A stretch of 64,000 nt of DNA from Aminivibrio pyruvatiphilus (lineage in GTDB: Bacteria > Synergistota > Synergistia > Synergistales > Aminobacteriaceae): contig NZ_SORI01000003.1 of NCBI RefSeq assembly GCF_004366815.1, positions 124,001 through 188,000 of the forward strand, read 5' to 3'. The position numbers were made by a program, and so were the translations under genes. Below, one piece after another: positions 35,429-57,322 of this stretch (its first letter is position 1; each line of letters opens with the position of its first letter). The notes under the pieces were generated by a model that was not told where the DNA came from, did not search any database, and worked only from the letters and a program-made list of their open reading frames with translations.

Positions 35429-35536
35429 GTGAAGAAAATGACCCGTACCGTGTGTTCGGCCAGTGCCGTTTCCGTAATTATCGCCGTCATTATTATTCGC
35501 TGCGGGGCCCCTCCCGGAGCGCTTCTCGTCGTGTAG
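35429..35536 (+). CDS. Branched-chain leader peptide of the ilvNCB attenuator
   Basis: A 35-aa ORF starts with GTG 35429, behind GAAGGAGG. It reads VSVIIAVIII in the middle, with three consecutive Ile codons (35489-35497), and ends LLVV. That is a high density of Ile, Val and Leu directly before a branched-chain biosynthesis operon. Function is inferred from position and from the antiterminator behind it. Confidence 0.88.
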   Translation: MKKMTRTVCSASAVSVIIAVIIIRCGAPPGALLVV

Positions 35537-35592
35537 CCGGACGAAAGCACTTCCGAGGGACCCCCGCACACTCAGCGGGGGTCCCTTTTTTT
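35502..35592 (+). promoter_or_regulatory. ilv attenuator: antiterminator and terminator
   Basis: The terminator is GGGACCCCCGC (35557-35567) with GCGGGGGTCCC (35575-35585), a perfect 11-bp stem, then seven T. Bases 35502-35524 in the leader pair in several blocks with 35545-35567: GCGGGG:CCCCGC, CCCTC:GAGGG, GGA:TCC and GCTT:AAGC, which removes the 5' arm. The block begins four bases after the last Ile codon, so stalling at Ile leaves it free. Confidence 0.85.
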
Positions 35593-35627
35593 ATCCCCGC
35601 ATTTTTCACGAAGGAGGAGAGAGGCGC

Positions 35628-36101
35628 ATGGAACGGACCATAGGCGTAGTGACGGAGGAAGGACGAGGGGTTTTTTCCCGCATTTCGGGGCTCATGGAGC
35701 GCAGGGGATTCCAGGTCCGGGGCGTGACCGCCGGGGCGACCCAGCGCCCGGGAATGGCCCGGTACACCCTGGTGATCGGCGGGGATGAACGGCAGGCGGG
35801 CCAGGCCGTGCGCCAGATCCGGAAGATGGTGGAGACCGTGACGGTGGAGGATCTGAGCGCCGGCGGGTGCGTGGAGCGGTGCATGATGCTCCTGAAGTTC
35901 GCTCCGTCGCCGGAGGAGCGGGAGGCCCTTTTCGAGGTCATGAAGGGCTACCCTCATTCGGTGTCGGAGGACCGCGGCTCATCCCTCATCTTCGAGATGA
36001 TGGGCCCCGGCGTCCTGCTGGACGACTGCCTTGAAAACGTGCGGGGCCTCGGCCTCGTGGAATCGGTGAAAAGCGGCCCCCTGGCCCTTGGAACGAACTG
36101 A
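35628..36101 (+). CDS. ilvN: Acetolactate synthase regulatory subunit
   Basis: The 157-aa protein has an N-terminal ACT domain ([20 protein letters not shown] and a following beta strand) and an IlvN-type C-terminal half. It binds valine and modulates the catalytic subunit IlvB. The start at 35628 follows GGAGGAG. It is first in ilvNCB, whereas the catalytic gene usually comes first. It ends 40 bases before ilvC. Confidence 0.88.
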
Positions 36102-36141
36102 CGGAAACACACATACTCATTACGCGAAGGAGCTGAAAAAG

Positions 36142-37152
36142 ATGGCAACAGTACTGTACGACAGGGATGCGAACATGAAGGTTCTCGAGGGGAAAACGGT
36201 GGCCGTGCTCGGGTACGGAAGCCAGGGACACGCCCATGCCCAGAATCTCCGCGACAGCGGAGTCTCCGTGGTGGTGGGGCTTCACGAAGGCAGCAGATCC
36301 CGGGCGGCGGCCGAACGGGACGGCTTTGCGGTCCATTCAGTGGACGACGCCGTGAAAAACGCCGACGTGGTCATGTTCCTCATGCCGGACCATGTCCAGG
36401 GCACCGTCTACCGCACGTCGGTGGCCCCGAACCTGAAGAAGGGCGCAGCCCTGGCCTTCGCTCACGGCTTCTCCGTCCACTTCAGCCAGGTGGAACCCCC
36501 GAAGGACAACGACGTCTTCATGGTGGCCCCCAAGGGTCCCGGCCATCTCGTCCGGCGCATGTACACCGACGGTCGGGGCGTTCCCTGCCTTCTCGCCGTG
36601 GAACAGGACGCTTCAGGACACGCCCGGGAACTGGGACTGGCCTACGCCTGCGCCCTCGGCGGCGGCAGGGCCGGTGTTCTCTGCACCACCTTCGCCGAGG
36701 AGACGGAGACCGACCTTTTCGGCGAACAGGCCGTGCTGTGCGGTGGCATTACCGAACTCATCAAGGCGGGGTTCGACACCCTCGTGGAGGCCGGATACCA
36801 GCCCGAAATCGCCTATTTTGAATGCCTCAACGAAATGAAGCTCATCGTGGACCTCATGTACGAGGGCGGCATGGGCTGGATGCGCTACTCCGTCAGCGAC
36901 ACCGCCAAGTACGGCGACCTCACCGCCGGCAAAAAGGTCATCGACGGCAGGGTCAGGGAGACCATGAAGACTCTCCTTGCGGACGTAAAGGACGGCTCCT
37001 TCGCCAAGGACTGGATGCTCGAGAACCAGTGCGGCCGGCCCCGGATGAAAAAGTGGATGCAGCAGGAGAAGAGCCACCCCATCGAGGCGGTGGGCAAGGA
37101 ACTTCGGGCCATGATGCCCTGGATGGACGCCAAGTCGGCCCCCGACGCCTGA
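36142..37152 (+). CDS. ilvC: Ketol-acid reductoisomerase, class I
   Basis: The 336-aa enzyme converts acetolactate to dihydroxy-isovalerate with NADPH. It shows the Rossmann motif [30 protein letters not shown] and the metal-binding [16 protein letters not shown]. The ATG at 36142 is used because AAGGAGCTG lies nine bases upstream; an ATG 54 bases earlier has no such site. Confidence 0.96.
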
Positions 37153-37186
37153 TTTTTTTCGAGATACGGAGAGAGGAGAGAACGCC

Positions 37187-38860
37187 ATGAAGATGACGGG
37201 AGCCAGGATGGTGGTGGAAGCCCTTGCGATCGAGGGAGTGAAGTGCGTGTACGGCATACCGGGAGGGTCGGTCATCCCCCTCTACGACGCCCTTTACGAT
37301 GCCCCCTTCGCCCACATCCTCATGCGGCACGAACAGGCGGCGGCCCACGCCGCGGACGGGTACGCCCGCGCCTCGGGAAAGCCGGGGGTGTGCATCTGCA
37401 CCTCCGGCCCGGGGTTCACCAACATCCTCACCGGACTGGCGACCGCCTTCATGGATTCCGTTCCCCTCGTGGCAATTTCCGGACAGGTGGCCACCCATCT
37501 CATCGGCACCGACGCCTTCCAGGAGTCGGACACCTTCGGGAGCAGCCTGCCGGCAGTGAAGCACAGCTTCCTCGTCCGATCCGTTGAGGAGCTCCCGGCG
37601 GCGCTGAAGGGGGCCTTCGAGATCGCCGTCTCGGGCCGCCCCGGCCCCGTGCTCGTGGATCTGCCCGTGGACATCCAGAAGGCCCAGGGCGAGTTCGTCT
37701 ACCCTGAACATGCCCTTTTCGGCGAAGACCGTCTTAAGATGCAGACCGATCTGTCCAGGGCGGACGAGGCAGCCTCCCTCCTCAGAAACGCAGAGCGGCC
37801 GGTGATCCTCGCGGGGGGCGGCATCCTCTCCTCCGGGGCTTCCGGCTTCCTCCTCCGCCTGGCGGAGAAATGCGCCATTCCCGTGGCTACCACCCTCATG
37901 GGGAAAGGGGCCTTCCCCGAGGACCATCCCCTCTCCCTGGGCATGGCGGGCATGCACGGCACCCCCTGGGCCAACCTCGCCCTTTCGGAGGCGGACGTCC
38001 TCTTCGCGGTGGGCACCCGGTTCAGCGACCGCACCACCGGCAGGCTCGACTGCTTCGTCAAAGACGCCGCCGTCATCCACGGCGACATCGACGAGGCGGA
38101 GTTCGACAAGATCGTCCCGTGCCGGGTGCACCTCCTCGGCGACGCAAAGGCCATCCTCGGCACGGTCACGGAAGAGCTCGGGGAATGCCGCCGGGACGAG
38201 TGGGCGGCCGCGGTGGAACGGTGGAAGGAGGAATACCCTCTCTCCGACCCCGGTTCCGCGGACTTCATTCCCTCATCGGTCCTGGAGGCCGTCCGCAGGT
38301 CGGCGAAGGACCGGTGGCCCGTGGTGGCCGACGTGGGCCAGAACCAGATGTGGACCGCCCTGTTCTATAAAACGAACGAACCGGGAACCTTCCTCACCTC
38401 CGGGGGCCTCGGCACCATGGGATACGCCCTCCCGGCGGCCATGGGCGCCTCCCTGGCCAGAAACCGCACCCCCGTGCTCTGCTTCGCCGGAGACGGCGGA
38501 TTCCTGATGAACTGCCAGGAGCTCGAAACCTGCGCCCGGTACGGCATCCCCGTGAAGATCTTCGTCCTGAACAACGGGGCCCTCGGCATGGTCCGCCAGT
38601 GGCAGGAACTCTTCTGGAACGAACGGTACTCCGGCACCACGCCTCTTTCCCCCTGCCGGTTCGCCGCCCTGGCGGAAGCCCTGGGCGTGCCGGGGCACAC
38701 CTGCACGTCCATGGTCGAACTGGAAGGCCTGCTTCCGGACATGCTCGCAGCGCCCGGACCGGCCCTGGTTGACTGCCGCATCCCCAGGGAAGAGCTCATC
38801 CTCCCCATGGTCCCCGCGGGGGCGGCCCTGAAAGATTTTATCTACAAGGTGAAGGTGTAG
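37187..38860 (+). CDS. ilvB: Acetolactate synthase catalytic subunit
   Basis: The 557-aa ThDP enzyme condenses two pyruvates (or pyruvate plus 2-oxobutyrate). It has YGIPGGSVIPLYDAL, RHEQAAAHAADGYARASG with the catalytic glutamate, the FAD-binding middle domain, and the ThDP motif GDGGFLMNCQEL followed by NNGALGMVRQWQ. It is 35 bases after ilvC, and completes ilvN-ilvC-ilvB; ilvD, ilvE and leu genes are not in the window. It ends 14 bases before the stop of the convergent galM. Confidence 0.95.
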   Translation: MKMTGARMVVEALAIEGVKCVYGIPGGSVIPLYDALYDAPFAHILMRHEQAAAHAADGYARASGKPGVCICTSGPGFTNILTGLATAFMDSVPLVAISGQVATHLIGTDAFQESDTFGSSLPAVKHSFLVRSVEELPAALKGAFEIAVSGRPGPVLVDLPVDIQKAQGEFVYPEHALFGEDRLKMQTDLSRADEAASLLRNAERPVILAGGGILSSGASGFLLRLAEKCAIPVATTLMGKGAFPEDHPLSLGMAGMHGTPWANLALSEADVLFAVGTRFSDRTTGRLDCFVKDAAVIHGDIDEAEFDKIVPCRVHLLGDAKAILGTVTEELGECRRDEWAAAVERWKEEYPLSDPGSADFIPSSVLEAVRRSAKDRWPVVADVGQNQMWTALFYKTNEPGTFLTSGGLGTMGYALPAAMGASLARNRTPVLCFAGDGGFLMNCQELETCARYGIPVKIFVLNNGALGMVRQWQELFWNERYSGTTPLSPCRFAALAEALGVPGHTCTSMVELEGLLPDMLAAPGPALVDCRIPREELILPMVPAGAALKDFIYKVKV

Positions 38861-44767: not shown

Positions 44768-45943
44768 CTACAGCTCGCCCCGAAAGGCCTTGGCGAGCAG
44801 AGAAGAATAAAGAGTCTTAAAATCTTCCTTTAATCCGAGATTTTGTTGTTGTATTGTCTGACGACGATTCGCGATTTCCGAAAAACGCTTCTGCTCATTG
44901 TATTCCGGTACGGGAACAAGTATTTTTGCCAACTTGTTTAACCCTAACGTCCTGTTTCTTCCAGCAGATCCAGGCGATGCAGCTCTGATGTCTTCGATGC
45001 CACGATCACCAAGAAAATGATGGCAAAGAAATTCCGATGTTGCCCGGCCTTTCTTTGGAACATAGGTAATGAAACGGTGGGAACCCACTCGTCCATGATC
45101 TTCGGCCTTGGCTACAGCTATTGCCTTCTCCCAAGCAAAGACGTTATTGAAAACAAGATCACCTTCGTGAATAGCGTAGATCCGTTTATTGCCGATTTGT
45201 TTGCCACTTAACACTGGTTTTTTAAACGTACCTTTGCCAAAACTGCGAATACCCATTTCTTCATAACTTTTTTCCGGTTCAGTCTTTATTGAGCGGCGAA
45301 ACAGCGACGCAACCTCTTTGAGTGGCTTCCATACAACCCCTTCTAGCATACGGACATACAACGCGTGAAGAAATATGTCCAATTCTTCTTCGCGTTGAGC
45401 ACTAAGCTTCCGTACTTCTTCCATTCGGCGGGTCAGGTCTTCGATCCGTTGTACGATCCGATGCTGCTCGTGGATAGGAGGAACTGGGATTTGGCTATCC
45501 CGCAAAAAATCTACTGGAACTCGCTGTTGTCCGGCAGCACCATGCATGTTTTTCTTTGCCTGCTCGCGGAAATTTTTATCCCTCACGAAAAGGCGTAGCC
45601 ATTCCGAAGTTACCAAATTTCGAGGACGCAGGACATGGAATTCTGTGGTTCCAAAACCTACTCCATTAATAAGATTACGGGCAATAGCGGACTTCCCGTT
45701 TTCCATACAGGGTGTTATCTTGGCAAACACAACATCGCCTTCCGCAAAGTAGGTATAACCTTTTCGAACATCTCCTAAATTTTTAGATTCGGAGACATTC
45801 ATAGTCCCAGAAATCTCATCAACTCGCGCCATCGGCACGAAAGAAACAGGTGTGTCGTTAGCGAGTCCGGCAACTTCCGCTTTCTTGGGATTCAGAATAC
45901 AGATTTCATCGTCTCCGAGCTTTCGGAGGGGCCATTTACTCAT
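44768..45943 (-). CDS. hsdS: Type I restriction system specificity subunit
   Basis: The 391-aa HsdS has two target recognition domains (about 1-165 and 200-360), each ended by a helical spacer (IPVPPIHEQHRIVQRIEDL and ILVPVPEYNEQKRFSEIA). The two domains each read half of a bipartite DNA site for the R and M subunits. The gene is visibly richer in A and T than hsdM and hsdR, which suggests the specificity gene was swapped in from elsewhere. The start overlaps the hsdM stop (ATGA). Confidence 0.93.
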   Translation of the reverse strand: MSKWPLRKLGDDEICILNPKKAEVAGLANDTPVSFVPMARVDEISGTMNVSESKNLGDVRKGYTYFAEGDVVFAKITPCMENGKSAIARNLINGVGFGTTEFHVLRPRNLVTSEWLRLFVRDKNFREQAKKNMHGAAGQQRVPVDFLRDSQIPVPPIHEQHRIVQRIEDLTRRMEEVRKLSAQREEELDIFLHALYVRMLEGVVWKPLKEVASLFRRSIKTEPEKSYEEMGIRSFGKGTFKKPVLSGKQIGNKRIYAIHEGDLVFNNVFAWEKAIAVAKAEDHGRVGSHRFITYVPKKGRATSEFLCHHFLGDRGIEDIRAASPGSAGRNRTLGLNKLAKILVPVPEYNEQKRFSEIANRRQTIQQQNLGLKEDFKTLYSSLLAKAFRGEL

Positions 45944-47469
45944 TTCCCATTCCCTCCGGACAGCAGCTCCTGCATCTCGGCAATCAGTTCCAGAATCCGC
46001 TCCTCTTTCGCGGCGACCGAGGCCAGGATTTCCTCAGGCTCGGCGTACTCGACGGTCTCCGCCTCCATGAGGCCCAGGCCGGAAAGGGTCATGTTGTACC
46101 CGTTTTCGATGATCTTCCGTGCCGGTACCAGCCATGCGCGTCCTTCTTCGGTTTTCCGGTCCGGCCACATGGCCAGAAGGTCGGGAAAGTCGTTGCGGTA
46201 CTGGATGCCGAACTTGCGGGCCTTGGAGAGGGACGATCCGTCGCCGTCCACCTTGAAGAACCAGACGTTTTCGGTAGGCCTGCCGGTGTTTTTGAAGACG
46301 AAAAAGCAGGTGGGGTTGGGGGTGTAGGGCTCGAACATGCCCTTGGGCAGAATCACAACGGCCTGGAGGTCGAACTCCCTCAGAAGCCGTTCCTTCACGG
46401 TGATGTGGCTTCCCGTGTCGCCGAAGAGGATGCCGTTGGGAAATATGATCCCGGCGGTGCCGCCGGGGCGCAGGCTCCGCAGGGCATGGGCGAGGAAAAG
46501 AACGTACTTGTCGCCCTTCTCGACGCGCAGAGAGCGCTTGGCGTCGCCCCGCGAGCCGGAAAAGGGAGGATTTTCCAGAATGTAGTCGAACCGGATCTCG
46601 TCCCACCTGTCCTCTCCGCCGCAGATGGAGTCGCGCTGGACGATGGGGCACCGGTCGAAGCCGTGGAGCATGGCGTTCATGGCGGCCATGCGGAGTATGT
46701 CCTGGTCGCCGTCGAAGCCGAAAAACGCTCCGGTCTGGAGGAAGTCCCACTGGTCCCGGGTGAGCCTGTCGCCGATGCCGATCCTGCGGACCGCCCCGTC
46801 GGGGGACACTTTTTCGCTGACAAATTCCGGACTGGTGTTGGCGAGAAGGATGTGTTCGTAGGCGGCGATAAGGAATCCGCCGGAACCGCAGGCAGGATCG
46901 CATACGGTGCCGCCGATCTCCGGATCGACCATCCGGGTGATGACCCGGATCAGGTGCCGGGGGGTGCGGAACTGGGCCGCCTTCTTCTGCCCTCCCAGCT
47001 CGCTGGCCAGGTATTCAAAAAGGTCTCCCTTCACATCGGCATCCATGCCGAGGAAGGAGATGGGTGCGATGATGTCCACTGCGCGGCGCAGGGTGGCTCC
47101 GTTGGGTATGACGATGGAGGCGTTGCGGAAAATGGAGCGGGCTCCCTGGGAGAGTTCCGGGTGACGGGAGAGCAGCGGCAGGGTGTCCCGGAGGATGCGG
47201 AGCATGGCCTCGTTGTCCGGATTGGAGGTAAGCACGCTCCAGCGCAGGGGATCGAAGTCGAGATCCTCGCCGCCTTCCCGGAAGGTGCCGAAGAGAGTGC
47301 GATAGTTCCCGTTGAGGACCTCCTTCTGTTCGTGGTCCATTTCTTCCAGCATTTTCAGGAAGAGCAGGTAGGAGATCTGGGTGACGTAGGTGATGGGGTT
47401 GGTGACGTTGCTGTCCCACATTACTTTGCAGAGGGACTTGAGAGTGTTTTGAAGTTGTCCGTTGTCCAT
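45940..47469 (-). CDS. hsdM: Type I restriction system adenine methyltransferase
   Basis: The 509-aa N6-adenine methyltransferase has the SAM-binding ACGSGGFLIAAYEH, catalytic NPPF, and the helical N-terminal HsdM domain (KSLCKVMWDS). It methylates the host site to protect it. The start at 47469 follows GAGGA at about seven bases; the longer reading (47499) would overlap hsdR. It has ordinary high GC. Confidence 0.94.
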   Translation of the reverse strand: MDNGQLQNTLKSLCKVMWDSNVTNPITYVTQISYLLFLKMLEEMDHEQKEVLNGNYRTLFGTFREGGEDLDFDPLRWSVLTSNPDNEAMLRILRDTLPLLSRHPELSQGARSIFRNASIVIPNGATLRRAVDIIAPISFLGMDADVKGDLFEYLASELGGQKKAAQFRTPRHLIRVITRMVDPEIGGTVCDPACGSGGFLIAAYEHILLANTSPEFVSEKVSPDGAVRRIGIGDRLTRDQWDFLQTGAFFGFDGDQDILRMAAMNAMLHGFDRCPIVQRDSICGGEDRWDEIRFDYILENPPFSGSRGDAKRSLRVEKGDKYVLFLAHALRSLRPGGTAGIIFPNGILFGDTGSHITVKERLLREFDLQAVVILPKGMFEPYTPNPTCFFVFKNTGRPTENVWFFKVDGDGSSLSKARKFGIQYRNDFPDLLAMWPDRKTEEGRAWLVPARKIIENGYNMTLSGLGLMEAETVEYAEPEEILASVAAKEERILELIAEMQELLSGGNGK

Positions 47470-47488
47470 GTCCGATCCTCGCTTTGTA

Positions 47489-49831
47489 TTATCCTGCAAT
47501 CAGGGAGTTCAGTTCCTCCACCATTTCCTGAAGCTGTTCCCCTCCGAAGAGCTGCTCCATTCTGGTCCGCCCGCCCCAGAGGGTGAAGGGGGGCTGACTG
47601 AAAAGTTCCAGCGATATTGTATCCCCCGACAGAACCCGGGCCTTCAGCAGGCGAAGCATCCGGGCCTGGTCGGGATTGATGCTGCTCGAGTGTTCCGAAA
47701 CCCAGACATCGAAGGCCTTCTCGATGCGCTCTTCCCGGGTGAGAAAACGTCCGAGTCCCAGAGCTACCCTTACAAAGTCGGAAAGGGAGCCGGTGGGCTG
47801 CTCGAAAGCCCGGCGCAGGGTCTCTTCGTTGAAATAGTGCCGGGGGGAGTTGAGGCGTCCGGCGAGGTCTTCCCATTCATCATCGGTCAGTTCCTCCCCG
47901 CGGAAGATCTTTTCCACCGCCGGATCGGTCCGCCTGAGTTCCACCACCTTCTGTTCCCACTCATCCCGGTAGGCCGTGCGGTCCATGGCAAGCCCTTCCG
48001 GTCCGACGAGAATTATCTCCCGAGAGCGGATTTCGTCAACCAGGGAGCCTCCGCCGATGAGGGTAAAATTATCTTTTCGGCTCTTACCTCCGGGGGTGGC
48101 GGCCTCCGGCGGCAGATCACCGCTGTCAGGTTCACCTCCCTCGGCAACACGGGATCCCGGGGCGAAACCGACCTGCTTCGGCTTGCGGTATTCCCCGGCG
48201 GGATCGTTGAACCGCTTCGAGTTGCCGACAAAGTCGTAGATGATGAATTCCTCTTTGCCGATCTTCGGGCACAGGCGGCTGCCCCGCCCCCGCATCTGGG
48301 CGTATTTGATGTGTGATCCGGTAGGCCGGAGCATGACCAGGTTTTCAATATCCTTCTGGTCATAACCGGTGTCGAGCATGTCCACCGAAACGGCCACCAG
48401 GGGGAGCGGATCGTATTTGAACCGGTCGATAACAGGCCTTGGATTGCCGTTGTTGGTATAGCAGGTGATTTTTTCGGCGAACCTCTGGCGTACCTCGGAC
48501 GGGGAGCGGTTGATCCGGGCCGCGATACGGAGACAGTCTTCATCGGAAAGGAGTCTGTTGAAGAGGTATTCAAGAATCGAGGCCTGTTTTTCCGAAACCG
48601 CGAAGACGATGGTCTTGCGGGGCCTGATTTTTGCCCGTTCGGCGTCAGCGGTGAAATACTCCTGGATGATGGTGGTAAGCCGGTCCTCGGACTCGACGTC
48701 CCGCCCCCAGGAGCCGGGCTTGATCTCCTCACCCTCCCACTCGGCACCCTCAAAGGTGAGCACGCTTTCGGCGTTGTAGATCCGGTATTTGCTGAGGTAT
48801 CCGTCGTTTATGCCCCTCTGGATGCCGTATTCGAAGGTGGGCTGCCCCGTTTTTTCAGCAGCGTTCCAGCAGTCGAAGAAGATGTAGGTGTTGCGGATAA
48901 GGCGGCGCTCGTGATCGCTTATGAAGCAGAGTTCCCCGGGGTTCGGGGTGGCGGTGAGGCCGATATGAACGGCGTCAAAATGCCCCAAGGTGGCCCGGTG
49001 GGTATTGTAGATGGAGCGGTGGCATTCGTCGGTCACCACAAGGTCGAAGTATCCGTGGCCGAAACCGTTGCCTCCAAGCTGGGAGGAAATGGTGTCGAGG
49101 GTACCCACGACGATCTGCCCCTCCAGGCTGCGCTTGCCTCCATACAGGATGGTCGTGGGCCAGCCGCCCAGGTATTCGTCGAAGGTTTCCCGGGCCTGCT
49201 TGGCCAGCTCGATGCGGTCCGCCAGGAAGAGAACCCGGGAGATAACCGCCGCCTGAAGCCACCGTTTCATCAGCATGGCGATGGTCAGGGTTTTGCCTGT
49301 TCCGGTGGCCATCTCGAATAGCATCCGCCGGCGGCCGGAAATCAGGGCTTCATCGGCCTTTTTAAGACATTCGATCTGGTAGGGCCGGGCCTCTATTTCC
49401 TCGCCCCGGAAATGGAACCGGTAGGGCATCGGATGCAGCGAAAGACTCTGCCCGAGATCCCCCTTGCGGTGAATCCGGATGTTCGCCCGCCGCTCCAGGT
49501 CTGCCCGGCTTGGGAACCCCATTACCGGGCGGGCGTCACCGTCGGTGTAGTCCCAGAAATAGTGCTCCTGGCCGTTGCTCAGCATCACGAAGGGCGCCCG
49601 GAGCGACAGTGCATAAGTCCTGGCCTGCTCCTTGGCCGAGTAGGGATCGACGGTAAATCGCTTGGCTTCGAGGACGGCGAGGGGACGGCTCCGGGTATCC
49701 TTCAGAAGATAGTCGGCACGCCCATCGGCGGCGGCCTCTTCCGTGGAAACCTGTGCCTTGTCTGCAATATCCCAGCCTGCCTGCTCAAGCAGCCTGTCAA
49801 TCAATATTCGGGCATCGGCTTCTGTGGTCAT
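47489..49831 (-). CDS. hsdR: Type I restriction system endonuclease/helicase subunit
   Basis: The 780-aa protein has an N-terminal nuclease domain (VLEAKRFTVDPYS, the PD-ExK glutamate-x-lysine), helicase motif I ATGTGKT, motif II DECH and a C-terminal helicase half with DMLDTGYDQKD and GRGSR. It translocates and cuts unmethylated DNA. The order on the minus strand is hsdR-hsdM-hsdS, 20 bases between R and M. The start at 49831 is chosen from family alignment; the Shine-Dalgarno is weak. Confidence 0.93.
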   Translation of the reverse strand: MTTEADARILIDRLLEQAGWDIADKAQVSTEEAAADGRADYLLKDTRSRPLAVLEAKRFTVDPYSAKEQARTYALSLRAPFVMLSNGQEHYFWDYTDGDARPVMGFPSRADLERRANIRIHRKGDLGQSLSLHPMPYRFHFRGEEIEARPYQIECLKKADEALISGRRRMLFEMATGTGKTLTIAMLMKRWLQAAVISRVLFLADRIELAKQARETFDEYLGGWPTTILYGGKRSLEGQIVVGTLDTISSQLGGNGFGHGYFDLVVTDECHRSIYNTHRATLGHFDAVHIGLTATPNPGELCFISDHERRLIRNTYIFFDCWNAAEKTGQPTFEYGIQRGINDGYLSKYRIYNAESVLTFEGAEWEGEEIKPGSWGRDVESEDRLTTIIQEYFTADAERAKIRPRKTIVFAVSEKQASILEYLFNRLLSDEDCLRIAARINRSPSEVRQRFAEKITCYTNNGNPRPVIDRFKYDPLPLVAVSVDMLDTGYDQKDIENLVMLRPTGSHIKYAQMRGRGSRLCPKIGKEEFIIYDFVGNSKRFNDPAGEYRKPKQVGFAPGSRVAEGGEPDSGDLPPEAATPGGKSRKDNFTLIGGGSLVDEIRSREIILVGPEGLAMDRTAYRDEWEQKVVELRRTDPAVEKIFRGEELTDDEWEDLAGRLNSPRHYFNEETLRRAFEQPTGSLSDFVRVALGLGRFLTREERIEKAFDVWVSEHSSSINPDQARMLRLLKARVLSGDTISLELFSQPPFTLWGGRTRMEQLFGGEQLQEMVEELNSLIAG

Positions 49832-50160
49832 TTTTCCCCATTTCCACTCGGCTGTTTTTCCAGGCTGCAGGGACGCTGGAAAGCTCAAGGACACCGCAAT
49901 TACTCCACCGCCGGGCATTCCGGAAGAAGACGTCACTCAGTCTTTTTTTTCTTTTTCGGGTCAGCCACCTGTCTCTCACATATTGACTCGTCCACCCGAT
50001 AATATCAAATTCTATCAAGTATAACACCAAGAATCCGAACATTTCGTCAACCTTCTGTTATGAATGTCTACTGCCATTCTCGGATTTCCGGTTGACAGAA
50101 ACGGAGCGCTCCGTTACCATAATTTTATACAATATTACGCCGAAGCAGGGGGATCCGCCC
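49832..50160. other. Divergent intergenic region, hsdR and Met leader
   Basis: The left part is upstream of hsdR. The right part holds the Met leader promoter (50092-50120) with its spacer palindrome. A polypyrimidine run (TTTTTTTTCTTTTT near 49945) is present. No gene was seen. Confidence 0.5.
50092..50120 (+). promoter_or_regulatory. Sigma-70 promoter with palindrome in the spacer
   Basis: TTGACA (50092-50097), 17-base spacer, TACCAT (50115-50120). The whole 50101-50114 stretch ACGGAGCGCTCCGT is a perfect 14-bp palindrome lying between the -35 and -10, a likely operator. Confidence 0.7.
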
Positions 50161-50247
50161 ATGACATCGCACTTTAACGCCGCAGTGTTCAACGCTCTTT
50201 TCGTCATAATGATGCGCAGCGACCCTCCTGGAGCCGCAGGCGCCTGA
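50161..50247 (+). CDS. Met-rich leader peptide of an attenuator before an unknown gene
   Basis: A 28-aa ORF, ATG 50161 behind AGGGGGA. Its control codons are FVIMM (ATA ATG ATG at 50206-50214), immediately before RSDPPGAAGA and the stop. The end and the nucleotides behind it closely resemble the aspartokinase leader at 54891. Stalling at Met (perhaps Ile) is the only reading consistent with this layout; the amino acid sensed is inferred. Confidence 0.75.
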   Translation: MTSHFNAAVFNALFVIMMRSDPPGAAGA

Positions 50248-50309
50248 TTTTGCGTGCCTTTGAGCTTCAGCCGGGGGGCTTCGGAACATCGAAGGTCCCC
50301 GGCTTTTTT
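50221..50309 (+). promoter_or_regulatory. Met attenuator: antiterminator and terminator
   Basis: GACCCTCCTGGAG (50221-50233) pairs with CTTCAGCCGGGGGG..C (50265-50279), 12 pairs, one mismatch and a two-base bulge, removing the 5' arm of the terminator. The terminator is AGCCGGGG..CTTCG (50269-50283) with CGAAGG..CCCCGGCT (50290-50304), then six T. The antiterminator lies 12 bases after the first Met codon. Confidence 0.8.
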
Positions 50310-50341
50310 ATGACTGAAAAAACGACAGGGAGGGATTTTCC

Positions 50342-51598
50342 ATGCAGAATTTCGGATTCCAGATCGGCGAAGATACCGTCCGGCAGCTGAATGCCTTTCT
50401 TTCCGACCCGGGGAACGGGGCAATCGGCGACCTGAAAAGAGTCGTGGCCAAATACGGCTCGGTGAGCGAAATCAACGAACGGGCCCGGGAATCGGGAAAG
50501 GTGGAAAGCCTGGTCAAAAAGCTGGAGCGGATGAACTCGCCCTACGTGAAGGACCTCGAATGGCTCGCGGAGATCCGTGACGAGGGGAAGCTGGTCTCCC
50601 TGTCGGACTACCGGGCACGGGTCAATCCCGGCCGGCCTTCGTGGGACTACGACCATTCCAGGGCGGCGACCCTGGAGATCAGCGCCATGCAGTATTTCCC
50701 GTGGCTTCTCGCCGAGGTGCGGCAGTGCGTGGAAAAGGGGGAGGTGCTCCCCGGCAGGTTCATCCGGGTACGGAAGATGAAGGAGCAGGAAGCGGACGGA
50801 GGCGACCTTCCCGCCGTGCGTGCCGCCACGAAAATTCTTGGCGCCTCCTGCGTGGAAACCCTGGATACGAAGGGCGTGGACGGGTCGAACATCCACCTCG
50901 GCGGGCCCGAGACCATCACAGGCTACTTCGGCGGCATCGGCCAGCCCAACAGCCATCCTCTCCGGTGGGTGGAAGAAGCCCTGTACTACTACGTGAACTA
51001 CGGCGTGGACGAGGTGCTCAACATCAACCCCGGAACGGTGTTCCTGGGCTACCTGCTCTACCGCATGGGCGTGGACATCCGGTTCAAGATCTCCGTCTTC
51101 ATGGGGAACGACAACCCCTACGCCGTGCTCTGGACCCTGCTGGCAGCCCGGATGTTCGCCCGGGAGGACGGAAGCACCCCCCTGGCGGGCTTCAACCTGT
51201 CCAACTCCATCGACGACGCCCATCTGGCGAAATCCGCGGAGATCCGCAGATCCCTCGGCCTGGAGGACCAGGTGCGGATCGAACACCATATTACGGAGAC
51301 CTGGAAGAGCATCGTCCGCCAACCCTACAACCGCCGTGACGGACTTCTGGAGCTGGTGAAGACGGTACCCAACATTTCGGCGAAACACGAGGGAGGCAAC
51401 CCGGAGGACGAGCAGACCCTCGCCCATCCGTCGGATATCCTCGACTACTTCCGGGAGAAGAAGGAGATCGAGTCGTCCGGGGAGATGGACGCCCTGACCC
51501 GGAATTACCTGCTGAAGCACAAGGCGGTGAACGACACGGCGGCCGCCCTGACGAAGGCGGGACTGTCCTTCGTGGCGGCGGGAGCCCACAGACTCTAG
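50342..51598 (+). CDS. Unrecognised 418-aa protein under a Met-type attenuator
   Basis: I do not recognise this family. The 418-aa soluble protein has no signal peptide or membrane segment. Long helices at the N-terminus (about 1-100) are followed by a mixed alpha/beta region with SNIHLGGPETITGYFGG, GQPNSHPLRWVEEALYYYV, INPGTVFLG and FMGNDNPYAVLWTLLAARMF, which looks like a barrel of repeated beta-alpha units. It carries only one or two cysteines. It is the only gene between a Met-type attenuator and a terminator, so the layout links it to methionine or a neighbouring pathway. The start at 50342 follows AGGGAGGG. A terminator lies 18 bases behind the stop. Confidence 0.7.
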   Translation: MQNFGFQIGEDTVRQLNAFLSDPGNGAIGDLKRVVAKYGSVSEINERARESGKVESLVKKLERMNSPYVKDLEWLAEIRDEGKLVSLSDYRARVNPGRPSWDYDHSRAATLEISAMQYFPWLLAEVRQCVEKGEVLPGRFIRVRKMKEQEADGGDLPAVRAATKILGASCVETLDTKGVDGSNIHLGGPETITGYFGGIGQPNSHPLRWVEEALYYYVNYGVDEVLNINPGTVFLGYLLYRMGVDIRFKISVFMGNDNPYAVLWTLLAARMFAREDGSTPLAGFNLSNSIDDAHLAKSAEIRRSLGLEDQVRIEHHITETWKSIVRQPYNRRDGLLELVKTVPNISAKHEGGNPEDEQTLAHPSDILDYFREKKEIESSGEMDALTRNYLLKHKAVNDTAAALTKAGLSFVAAGAHRL

Positions 51599-51616
51599 AA
51601 ACCGACGGCTATTCGG

Positions 51617-51646
51617 GGGGGCGGCAGAGTCCGCCCCCTCTTTTTT
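51617..51646 (+). terminator. Intrinsic terminator of the 418-aa protein gene
   Basis: GGGGGCGG (51617-51624) with CCGCCCCC (51631-51638), loop CAGAGT, then CTTTTTT. A near-identical terminator ends the amidohydrolase gene (54528-54558). Confidence 0.9.
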
Positions 51647-54890: not shown

Positions 54891-54980
54891 GTGAGCATGA
54901 AACCAGCAGTTCCGCATCATCCCGCAGCCTGTGCCATGACGATGACTAGCGGCGACCCTCCTGGAGAGGTCGGCGCCTGA
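54891..54980 (+). CDS. Met/Thr leader peptide of the ak-hom attenuator
   Basis: A 29-aa ORF with GTG 54891 (AAGGAG eight bases upstream). Control codons are ATG ACG ATG ACT (Met-Thr-Met-Thr, 54936-54947), then SGDPPGEVGA and the stop. Both amino acids are end products of the pathway encoded downstream. The downstream sequence is shared with the leader at 50161. Confidence 0.85.
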   Translation: MSMKPAVPHHPAACAMTMTSGDPPGEVGA

Positions 54981-55041
54981 TCCGTCGTGCACCGACAGCT
55001 TCAGCCGGGGGTCTTCGTACAGAAGGCCCCCGGCTTTTTTT
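54954..55041 (+). promoter_or_regulatory. ak-hom attenuator: antiterminator and terminator
   Basis: GACCCTCCTGGAG (54954-54966) pairs with CTTCAG..GGGGGTC (54999-55013): 13 pairs around a bulged CC. This takes away the terminator 5' arm. The terminator is AGCCGGGGGTCTTC (55003-55016) with GAAGGCCCCCGGCT (55022-55035), then T residues to 55041. The AGCTTCAGCCGGGGG words (54997-55011) are identical to 50263-50277. Confidence 0.85.
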
Positions 55042-55064: not shown

Positions 55065-56264
55065 GTGTGGAACAAGGGAGAAGGCGTAGTGCTCAAGTTC
55101 GGGGGAACGTCGGTGGCGAACCCTGAAAGGATCAGGGCCGGGGCAGGCCGGATCGCCGATTTTTTCCGCTCGGGTCTCAGGGTGGCCGTGGTGGTGTCCG
55201 CCATGGGAAGCACCACCAACAGCCTGATCGCTCTCTCGGGTGAAACTTCGGGCGGGACGCCGGACAGAAGGGAGCTGGACCAGCTTCTTGCCACGGGGGA
55301 GCAGCAGTCGGCGGCCCTTATGGCCATGGAGCTCGGAAGGCAGGGATGCCCTGCGGTTTCCTTCACCGGCGCCCAGGCGGGATTTCTTGCCGAAGGCCCC
55401 TGGGGGGAGGGCCGCATCCTGTCCGTGAACCCGGTGCGGGTTGAGGAAGCCTGCGCTTCGGGACGGGTGGCCGTGGTGACGGGCTTCCAGGCGGCTACAG
55501 CCTCGGGTGACACCATCACCCTGGGGCGGGGTGGGTCGGACCTTTCGGCCATCGCCCTGGCGGGAGCCCTGGGAGCGGATTCATGCCGCATTTTCACCGA
55601 CGTGGACGGGGTATTCTCGGCGGATCCCCGGAAGGTCCCCGGGGCGTTGAGGATCGGGCGGATCTCCTGGGAGGAATGCCTCGAAATGACTTTCCTCGGG
55701 GCGAAGGTGATGCAGTCCCGGAGCATCGAGATGGCGGAACGGCTGGAGCTGCCCCTGTGGGTGGGCTCCGGCGAAGGGGAGGGAACGTGGATCATGGGAA
55801 GAACGGTGGATGAGGCATTTCGGGCGTGTGCTGTGGTGTCGGACGAAAATATCGCCCTTCTTTCAGCGGAGGGATGCGGGAACGGAGGCTGTGACGTGGC
55901 GGAGGAGTTTTTCCTGCGGGGCATCCATATTCTGGCCGCCGCGGAACGGGGGTGTCCCTTGTTTTACATCCGCCGGGAGCGGCTGGAGGAAGCGGCGGAG
56001 ATATGCCGTAGGATGTCGGGGAAATCTCCATCGGTGAACCCCGGTGCGGCGAGGGTCTCCGTGGTGGGGCCCGGGGCGGGAAACCACCCCGAGATCGGCA
56101 GGGCCATGCTGAAGGTCCTCGGCCGACTCGGCGCTCCGGCGCACCTTCTGACCTCTTCGGGGCTCTCCGTAAGCTGTTTTGTGGATGAAAAGGACGCGCA
56201 GCCCGCTCTCCGGGCCCTGCACGCAGAATTCATCGAAAAGAAAGGGGGATTTCAATGCGCGTAG
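55065..56264 (+). CDS. lysC: Aspartokinase
   Basis: The 399-aa enzyme phosphorylates aspartate, the first step to lysine, threonine and methionine. It shows the N-terminal KFGGTSVAN kinase motif, TGEQQSAALMAM, GRGGSDLSAIALA and FTDVDGVFSADPRKV, with C-terminal ACT domains for feedback (VVGPGAGNHP, SSGLSVSCFVDEKD). GTG 55065 is the start: AAGGGGG is eight bases upstream. It overlaps hom by ten bases. The window has no asd or thrB/thrC. Confidence 0.93.
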   Translation: MWNKGEGVVLKFGGTSVANPERIRAGAGRIADFFRSGLRVAVVVSAMGSTTNSLIALSGETSGGTPDRRELDQLLATGEQQSAALMAMELGRQGCPAVSFTGAQAGFLAEGPWGEGRILSVNPVRVEEACASGRVAVVTGFQAATASGDTITLGRGGSDLSAIALAGALGADSCRIFTDVDGVFSADPRKVPGALRIGRISWEECLEMTFLGAKVMQSRSIEMAERLELPLWVGSGEGEGTWIMGRTVDEAFRACAVVSDENIALLSAEGCGNGGCDVAEEFFLRGIHILAAAERGCPLFYIRRERLEEAAEICRRMSGKSPSVNPGAARVSVVGPGAGNHPEIGRAMLKVLGRLGAPAHLLTSSGLSVSCFVDEKDAQPALRALHAEFIEKKGGFQCA

Positions 56265-57322
56265 AAAAAGAATGGGGGCTGTGCTTCGTGGGGTTCGGCA
56301 ACGTAGGGCAGGGGCTGGCCCGGCTGCTGGTGAAAAAGGAGGAGGAACTCGCCTCCAGGTGGGGCTTTTCCTGCCGCACCCTGGCCGTGGTGGGAAAGAC
56401 AAAGGGCGCCCTGGTCCGTCCCGAAGGGATCGGCATGGCTGACCTGCTGGCCCGGGTCGGCAGGGGAGAACCCCTGGGCTCTGACTCCGTCTCCCCGGTG
56501 GAGGCGGCGCTGCTTCCGGGAGTGGACATGGTGATCGACGTGACCCCCACCAACCTCTCGGACGGAGAGCCGGGGCTGTCGCTCACCCGGGCCGCCCTGG
56601 AGGCGGGACGGCACGTGGTCACCTCGGACAAGGGGCCCGTCTCCCTGGCCTTCCCGGAACTGAAGAAACTGGCGGAAGCCCGGGGCTGCAGCTACCGCTT
56701 CGAGGGCGCGGTGATGAGCGGGACCCCCTCCCTCAACCTTGCCCTGGAATCCCTGGCGGGCTGCGATGTCCTGGAGGCCAAAGGAATAGTGAACGGCACC
56801 ACCAACTACATCCTCACCCGCATGGAGGACGGGCTCGAATACGGCGAGGCCCTCCGGGAAGCCATGGAGAAGGGGTATGCGGAGGCCGACCCGTCCGGGG
56901 ACGTGGACGGGTGGGATGCGGCCGTGAAGGCCCAGATACTTGCCGGGGTGGTGCTCGGATCTCCCCTTTCCCTTGCGTCGGTGGACCGCCGGGGGATCGC
57001 GGGGATCACGAAGAAGGACGTGGAGGACGCCCTGGCCCGGGGACACCGGATCAAGCTGGTGGCCAGGGCCTCCTGCAGCGGAGGAACCGTCCGTGCGTCG
57101 GTGGCGCCGGAAGAGATCCCTCTTTCCCATCCGCTGGCGGGAGTGACCGGTGCGACAAACGCCCTCACCTTCACCACCGACACCCTCGGCGACGTGACCA
57201 TCATCGGCCCGGGTGCGGGAAGGGAGGAGACGGGGCAGGCCCTCCTGTCGGACATGCTCGCCATCGCCGCGGGCGCGCGAAAGGAGGAGGAATGCCTAAT
57301 AAAACAAAGCCATTTCCATTGA
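56255..57322 (+). CDS. hom: Homoserine dehydrogenase, without ACT domain
   Basis: The 355-aa enzyme reduces aspartate semialdehyde to homoserine. It has the NAD(P)-binding GFGNVGQGLARLL, SDKGPVSLAFPEL, GIVNGTTNYILTRM and ADPSGDVDGWDAAVK. The family often has a C-terminal ACT domain; here it ends near residue 355 without one, so control may rest on the attenuator and aspartokinase. The ATG overlaps the aspartokinase stop. Confidence 0.93.
   Translation: MRVEKEWGLCFVGFGNVGQGLARLLVKKEEELASRWGFSCRTLAVVGKTKGALVRPEGIGMADLLARVGRGEPLGSDSVSPVEAALLPGVDMVIDVTPTNLSDGEPGLSLTRAALEAGRHVVTSDKGPVSLAFPELKKLAEARGCSYRFEGAVMSGTPSLNLALESLAGCDVLEAKGIVNGTTNYILTRMEDGLEYGEALREAMEKGYAEADPSGDVDGWDAAVKAQILAGVVLGSPLSLASVDRRGIAGITKKDVEDALARGHRIKLVARASCSGGTVRASVAPEEIPLSHPLAGVTGATNALTFTTDTLGDVTIIGPGAGREETGQALLSDMLAIAAGARKEEECLIKQSHFH

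Follow-up and report, generated by a model that had tools for sequence, protein, structure and literature searches.

A conserved gene with no recognised function, here called X, lies behind a leader with the anatomy of a transcription attenuator, and to judge from its control codons this leader very probably responds to methionine in vivo. The helices of the leader covary, leaders of the same class carry codons that match the downstream gene across the phylum Synergistota, X falls in the Met group, and X is linked to the genes for homoserine dehydrogenase (hom) and aspartokinase (ask). X probably fills a gap in methionine synthesis, because the same switch, with matching codons, precedes known amino acid genes phylum-wide. 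The explanation that we favour as a whole, and consider probable, is a Met attenuator with X as a methionine-branch enzyme, most likely a substitute for MetY. Bacteria usually sense methionine through a SAM riboswitch, a T-box or MetJ. Leaders of the present kind provide a working pathway index for genes of no known function, since within one phylum the peptide codons name the amino acid; here, the leader ties a conserved and unnamed family to methionine synthesis in organisms that lack some or all of the known late methionine genes. The window is the whole stretch of DNA analysed, 64 000 nucleotides of Aminivibrio pyruvatiphilus (contig 3, 124001-188000, of a 3.35 Mb genome), and its coordinates are used throughout.

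The leader and gene X

The transcription unit of X comprises the following features.

50092-50120, + strand: sigma-70-like promoter, TTGACA, 17 nt, TACCAT (read directly)
50161-50247, + strand: leader peptide open reading frame (ORF) of 28 codons, MTSHFNAAVFNALFVIMMRSDPPGAAGA, then stop; same architecture in relatives
50206-50214, + strand: control codons ATA ATG ATG (AMMM in most relatives)
50221-50233, + strand: antiterminator 5' arm, GACCCTCCTGGAG, 13 nt, within the leader ORF
50265-50279, + strand: antiterminator 3' arm, CTTCAGCCGGGGGGC, overlapping the terminator 5' arm
50270-50309, + strand: intrinsic terminator, GCCGGGGGGCTTCG ... CGAAGGTCCCCGGC, then TTTTTT
50327-50333, + strand: Shine-Dalgarno-like AGGGAGG of gene X (read directly)
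50342-51598, + strand: gene X, 418 amino acids, unrecognised conserved family with an all-alpha N-terminal part and a TIM barrel
51615-51645, + strand: intrinsic terminator 3' of X (read directly)

The initial annotation had described a Met-type leader (FVIMM) in front of an antiterminator that pairs with the terminator, with the unknown protein as the only gene behind it, and each of these elements is in place. The peptide ends in VIMM-RSDPPGAAGA and carries two Met codons and one Ile, where most relatives have three Met. The unit is monocistronic, because the second terminator at 51615-51645 closes it. By sequence reading, a TTGACA-N17-TAnnAT promoter likewise lies 5' of the leaders in relatives. 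A perfect 16-nt palindrome, AACGGAGCGCTCCGTT, sits between the -35 and -10 elements of the X promoter (50100-50115) and is not conserved in relatives. Type I restriction-modification genes adjoin the locus on the minus strand (44768-49936; hsdR identified by HMM, hsdM and hsdS by eye).

Three further leaders of the same class occur in this genome, two of them within the window.

54891-54980, + strand: ask-hom leader peptide ORF, VSMKPAVPHHPAACAMTMTSGDPPGEVGA, then stop; control codons at 54936-54947
54954-55034, + strand: antiterminator and terminator of the ask-hom leader, same class as the X leader
55065-56264, + strand: ask, behind the Met/Thr leader (AA_kinase and ACT domains, TIGR00657)
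56255-57322, + strand: hom (by HMM)
35429-35592, + strand: third attenuator of the class, with the Ile/Val leader MKKMTRTVCSASAVSVIIAVIIIRCGAPPGALLVV, then stop, before ilvN-ilvC-ilvB (match to the covariance model R1 described below, E 2e-6)

The ask leader ORF begins at GTG 54891 and its peptide ends in CAMTMTSGDPPGEVGA. Both this ORF and that of X are short, have a ribosome-binding site, are conserved in relatives and are putatively translated. The sharing of a 13-base antiterminator and a 15-base sequence between the two leaders, claimed at the outset, was borne out: the 13-nt GACCCTCCTGGAG stands at 50221-50233 and again at 54954-54966, and the 15-nt AGCTTCAGCCGGGGG is common to both. The Ile/Val attenuator and its ilvN-ilvC-ilvB genes, read at the level of peptide and genes, span 35429-38860 and serve as an internal control. 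An exact motif search of the genome returned the X and ask leaders only, and the covariance model additionally recovered the ilv site and a metQ-metN site (C6:23197-23304) with the Met leader MTGSIRNGFCALFTMMMCGNGGSPPGRVGG. The metH gene of this genome has no leader of the class.

RNA pairing and the proposed mechanism

The antiterminator is formed by pairing of GACCCTC-CTGGAG with CTTCAG-CC-GGGGGxC. The 3' partner in the X leader, CTTCAG-CC-GGGGGGC, doubles as the 5' arm of a strong terminator, whose terminal TTTTTT is at 50309. Antiterminator and terminator alike are complete in the ask leader, with 13 of 13 pairs, and reach 12 of 13 in the X leader, leaving one mismatch in each helix of the latter. 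Because of these mismatches and the change from Met to Ile, control by the X leader may be weaker. Both leader RNAs are more stable than all 200 of their shuffled versions (z -3.1 for X, -5.1 for ask). When 12 leaders of relatives, located before X, ask or hom, are aligned, the antiterminator pairs are present in 96.8% of cells and the terminator pairs in 97.4%, falling to 38-68% and 39-65%, respectively, when the arms are slid by one to three columns. Three pairs in the terminator and one in the antiterminator have changed on both sides among these 12 leaders. The minimum-energy fold without the 3' terminator arm is the antiterminator (-31.7 and -33.3 kcal/mol), and with a ribosome placed at the stop codon the constrained fold is the terminator. 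The common arm, the covariation and the constrained folds agree that the two structures are mutually exclusive.

Searches of Rfam, which covers known leaders, SAM riboswitches and T-boxes, gave no match at the gathering threshold in the window, only a chance-level match to the X leader at a low threshold, and no relevant riboswitch, T-box or leader at 29 homologue loci. In a Tindallia metagenome-assembled genome, a tandem glycine riboswitch lies closely downstream of an X homologue (L026:6324-6517).

On this anatomy, the X leader (50161-50312) would act as a transcription attenuator that depends on the ribosome and senses the level of charged tRNA-Met. At low methionyl-tRNA, the ribosome would stall on the (ATA)ATG-ATG codons; its downstream edge would reach the first bases of the antiterminator arm, leaving CCCUCCUGGAG free to pair with CUUCAGCCGGGGG. 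The pairing of CCUCCUGGAG with CUUCAGCCGGGGG would then block the terminator, and RNA polymerase would continue into X. When methionine is ample, the ribosome would run to the stop codon, TGA 50245, and cover part of CUGGAG in the antiterminator arm; with that arm masked the terminator would form and X would be off. Alteration of CCTCCTGG would be expected to lock the leader in the off state.

One RNA core with exchangeable codons in Synergistota

The covariance model R1, built from the 12 aligned leaders, has matches in 75 of the 188 Synergistota genomes; of these sites, 80 were examined for their leader peptide and downstream gene; the identities of hom, panB, metQ, metN, metY and ilvN were confirmed by HMM. 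Behind leaders with Met runs, the gene is metN, metQ or metY in 25 cases and of the ilv type in none; behind leaders with Ile/Leu/Val runs, it is of the ilv type in 23 cases and a met gene in none (Fisher 3e-14; eight of the 23 were assigned through a small ORF that follows branched-chain amino acid (BCAA) leaders, and without them the count is 15 to 0). An MTMT leader precedes ask and hom, a TTMMCTT leader an X-ask operon (g27), and a Thr-rich TTTTTMTTC leader with one Met a hom-X operon (g2). The same core thus bears different control codons according to the downstream gene, and therefore represents one core with exchangeable codons in use across the phylum. That the Met codons are a mere by-product of a conserved RNA element is accordingly very improbable: the core beside them is indeed strongly conserved, but in front of other genes its codons at that place are Ile/Leu/Val, Thr or aromatic.

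A leader of the class precedes X in 19 genomes from six genera and four families. The peptides before X homologues vary except at the control position and in the tail (MTRISQPLLSAVLNAMMMRSDPPGAGGA, MPKVTRLISVLFAMMMRSDPPEAGGA, MGFSRFIRASSPVSAFFGMMMCSDPPGA, MNEARVISKIEIRYGMMMRGDPPEA and MINAKMTDPVSTLACAMMMTGGDPPEAVGA). The Met codons, whose conservation the initial reading had made a point to check, number at least two in 13 of the 15 such peptides examined; Met runs occur in g1, g8, g18, g25 and g27, and the leaders of genomes G103 and G018 have a single Met codon. In genome G110 (locus L261), an internal in-frame deletion has cut X to a remnant of 77 amino acids, with the leader intact and ask behind it.

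Other variants were seen in passing. Trp-run (WWWR) leaders of similar anatomy precede a trpB-like gene in Synergistota (L012:875-1006 and L015:70-205). Leaders with Phe/Tyr/Trp runs occur at L222, L253, L238 and L245, and two of them stand before a sodium:solute symporter, which probably serves aromatic amino acid uptake. A small ORF of about 56-86 amino acids with the repeated C-terminal motif WRGPFEG(F/L/Y) lies directly behind BCAA-type attenuators in at least eight Synergistota genomes (L231:1241-1498 on the minus strand, L223, L228, L230, L233, L258, L265, L268 and L273) and matches nothing in Pfam or NCBIfam.

Genomic context of X and the methionine pathway

The proposal that X has a role in methionine synthesis or a related pathway gains support from Met codon conservation, the matching of codons to genes, linkage to hom and ask, and near-exclusion with MetY. 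The Met regulon, the hom/ask neighbours and the MetY exclusion are three lines that point to the methionine branch, and on these comparative grounds we infer that X quite likely acts there, downstream of ask and hom. The homologues do lie beside genes of the pathway, a point that the initial reading had proposed to check: in g2 X follows hom, in g27 it precedes ask, and in a Thermoplasmatales genome 3 nt separate it from the hom gene behind it. Similar leaders, the alternative check, are present in the 19 Synergistota genomes and absent outside the phylum, where no X locus has a leader of the class. There X often adjoins panB, in at least 16 loci; the two genes are directly adjacent in Firmicutes, Desulfobacterota and Chloroflexi, and overlap by a few bases in L038 and L039. 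These panB neighbours do not fit the explanation that we favour.

MetY (O-acetylhomoserine sulfhydrylase; TIGR01326, PF01053) occupies the same slot behind Met leaders in other Synergistota, in a pattern nearly complementary to that of leader and X. Of 47 genomes with X, 12 have a protein above the TIGR01326 cut-off, against 103 of 141 without X (Fisher 1e-8, phylogeny ignored). Only one of the 19 genomes with a leader before X has MetY, and that genome is 8% contaminated; conversely, of the 12 genomes with the leader before metY, one has X. Genus g26 includes three genomes (G103-G105) that have the leader, X and an aminotransferase behind X, without MetY, and a fourth (G106) that has kept the leader and the aminotransferase, has lost X from between them and has metY elsewhere. 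Among the twelve genomes with both X and MetY, 11 show no leader match before X; from this coexistence, mostly without a leader, it follows that X either serves a different purpose or cannot simply stand in for MetY.

The statement that no met gene is seen is right for the window and wrong for the genome, which has metH and metF (C13) and metQ/metN (C6) as well as ask and hom. No strong PF01053 protein (MetB/MetC/MetY), HcyBio or MetE was found in it, and thus the step from homoserine to homocysteine is unaccounted for. X would most readily fill this gap, by converting an intermediate at the homoserine level to homocysteine, or straight to methionine; that it replaces the MetY step is a tentative suggestion, and the reaction is putative. 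HcyBio (PF01837) was absent from all 26 genomes tested for it, and MetE (PF01717) from the genomes tested. Four genomes with X that are 99-100% complete (G001, G004, G006 and G007) have no MetH, MetF, MetE or strong PF01053 protein, which implies a shorter route from X to methionine or the presence of a further enzyme; if X made only homocysteine, the final step to methionine would also be missing there. In the 2.0 of 2.43 Mb of G007 that were searched, thrB, hom, ask and panB are present, MetA, a MetX signature, MetB, MetY and MetF were not found, and the match to MetH is weak and partial.

The X protein family

As the initial annotation had it, X is unrecognised: its sequence matches nothing in Pfam or NCBIfam and nothing significantly in the PDB, its profile has no PDB match, 59 homologues gave nothing notable in Pfam, and a PHROGs search returned none. 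Nor does it match the sequences of PF01053 (MetY), PF02219 (methylene-tetrahydrofolate reductase, MTHFR), PF01717 (MetE, MesA-D) or PF01837 (HcyBio). The family is nonetheless conserved, with 398 X-related stretches in GTDB species genomes and about 60% identity among Synergistota, Desulfobacterota, Chloroflexi, Firmicutes and Thermoplasmata. No copy was found in the phages searched, and among plasmids there is one, from Polaromonas, annotated 'hypothetical protein' and with uninformative neighbours.

The structure prediction suggested at the outset was run with AlphaFold2 and gave a model with a pLDDT of 90, in which helices extend to residue ~95 and are followed by an eight-stranded barrel. 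One segment, residues 176-197, is poorly modelled and overlaps the highly conserved TKGxDGSNxHLGGPETITGYFGG. Foldseek searches with the model found generic barrel similarity (best E 3e-3, TM ~0.3), with many MTHFR entries. X is thus predicted to consist of a helical domain and a TIM barrel, with no closer fold assignment. Neither an invariant cysteine nor a catalytic motif can be recognised in X, and hhalign gave a probability of 0.1% against MTHFR and no signal against PanB, the alignment and profiles being shallow in these comparisons. It is conceivable, though rather doubtful, that X represents a hitherto unrecognised TIM-barrel enzyme family, widespread in anaerobic bacteria and archaea, that starts from an intermediate at the homoserine level and makes homocysteine, or methionine in one go, with no need of MetX/MetA or MetY, and that in Synergistota was placed under the Met attenuator or swapped there for MetY.

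Other roles for X

A position on the one-carbon or pantothenate side, in the supply or use of methylene-tetrahydrofolate (methylene-THF) or as an alternative methylene-THF reductase, would make Met control a response to methyl-group demand and would also account for the panB neighbours. The weak Foldseek matches do include many MTHFR entries, but at an E of only 3e-3 and a TM of ~0.3, and the hhalign comparison with MTHFR mentioned above speaks against kinship. Six of the 12 good X-containing genomes in family f1 have no MetF; these six also lack MetH and MetE, however, so that methyl-THF would have no known use in them, and on the same ground we rejected replacement of MetF as the main reading of X. 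Since this role would also leave the linkage to hom and ask unaccounted for, we regard it as improbable.

We give a similarly low probability to X serving the homoserine/aspartate-semialdehyde node in general, for threonine and methionine together. The hom-X operon behind a Thr-rich leader (g2), the X-ask operon behind TTMMCTT (g27) and the X-hom pair of the Thermoplasmatales genome would suit such a role. X's own leaders in g1, g8, g18 and g25 are nevertheless mainly Met and have no Thr runs; ask in the g1 and g8 genomes carries MTMT, unlike the X leaders, and metY and metNQ bear the same Met type as X. It is also unlikely that X salvages or processes an imported methionine precursor rather than taking part in de novo synthesis. 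Uptake by metNIQ is under the same Met leaders, and there are complete genomes with X but without any of the known late methionine genes tested; among the loci examined, however, no transporter shares an operon with X, which sits with ask or hom. The methionine branch remains our preferred placement of X.

Comparison with known attenuators

Ribosome-mediated attenuators combine control codons in a leader peptide, mutually exclusive antiterminator and terminator structures, and a downstream gene for the amino acid that is sensed (PMC9413887). By this description, the X leader has all the features of such an attenuator that can be tested in sequence. It resembles the enterobacterial thr, ilv, leu, his and trp attenuators in its control-codon peptide, exclusive hairpins and matching downstream gene. 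It differs from them in that it is predicted to sense Met, in that the peptide-coding ORF contains the antiterminator arm, and in that one conserved core, with no Rfam match, is reused for Met, Thr and BCAA within one phylum. Leader-peptide attenuators of Actinobacteria and Firmicutes (ilvBNC, his), described by comparative genomics, follow the same principle (PMC1262725, PMC11857589, PMC9413887); they concern other phyla and other amino acids. A search restricted to open papers found no Met-codon attenuator and no attenuation in Synergistota. Control of methionine genes by leader-peptide attenuation, with a phylum-wide RNA core absent from Rfam, thus appears to be undescribed in the open literature searched.

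The proposed function of X likewise has precedents from which it departs. MetY is a PLP-dependent PF01053 enzyme, whereas X is an unrelated predicted TIM-barrel protein without a PF01053 match. DUF39/HcyBio (PF01837) provides a route to homocysteine in anaerobes that does not involve MetY (PMC5764234); homoserine plays no part in that pathway, while the linkage of X is to hom.
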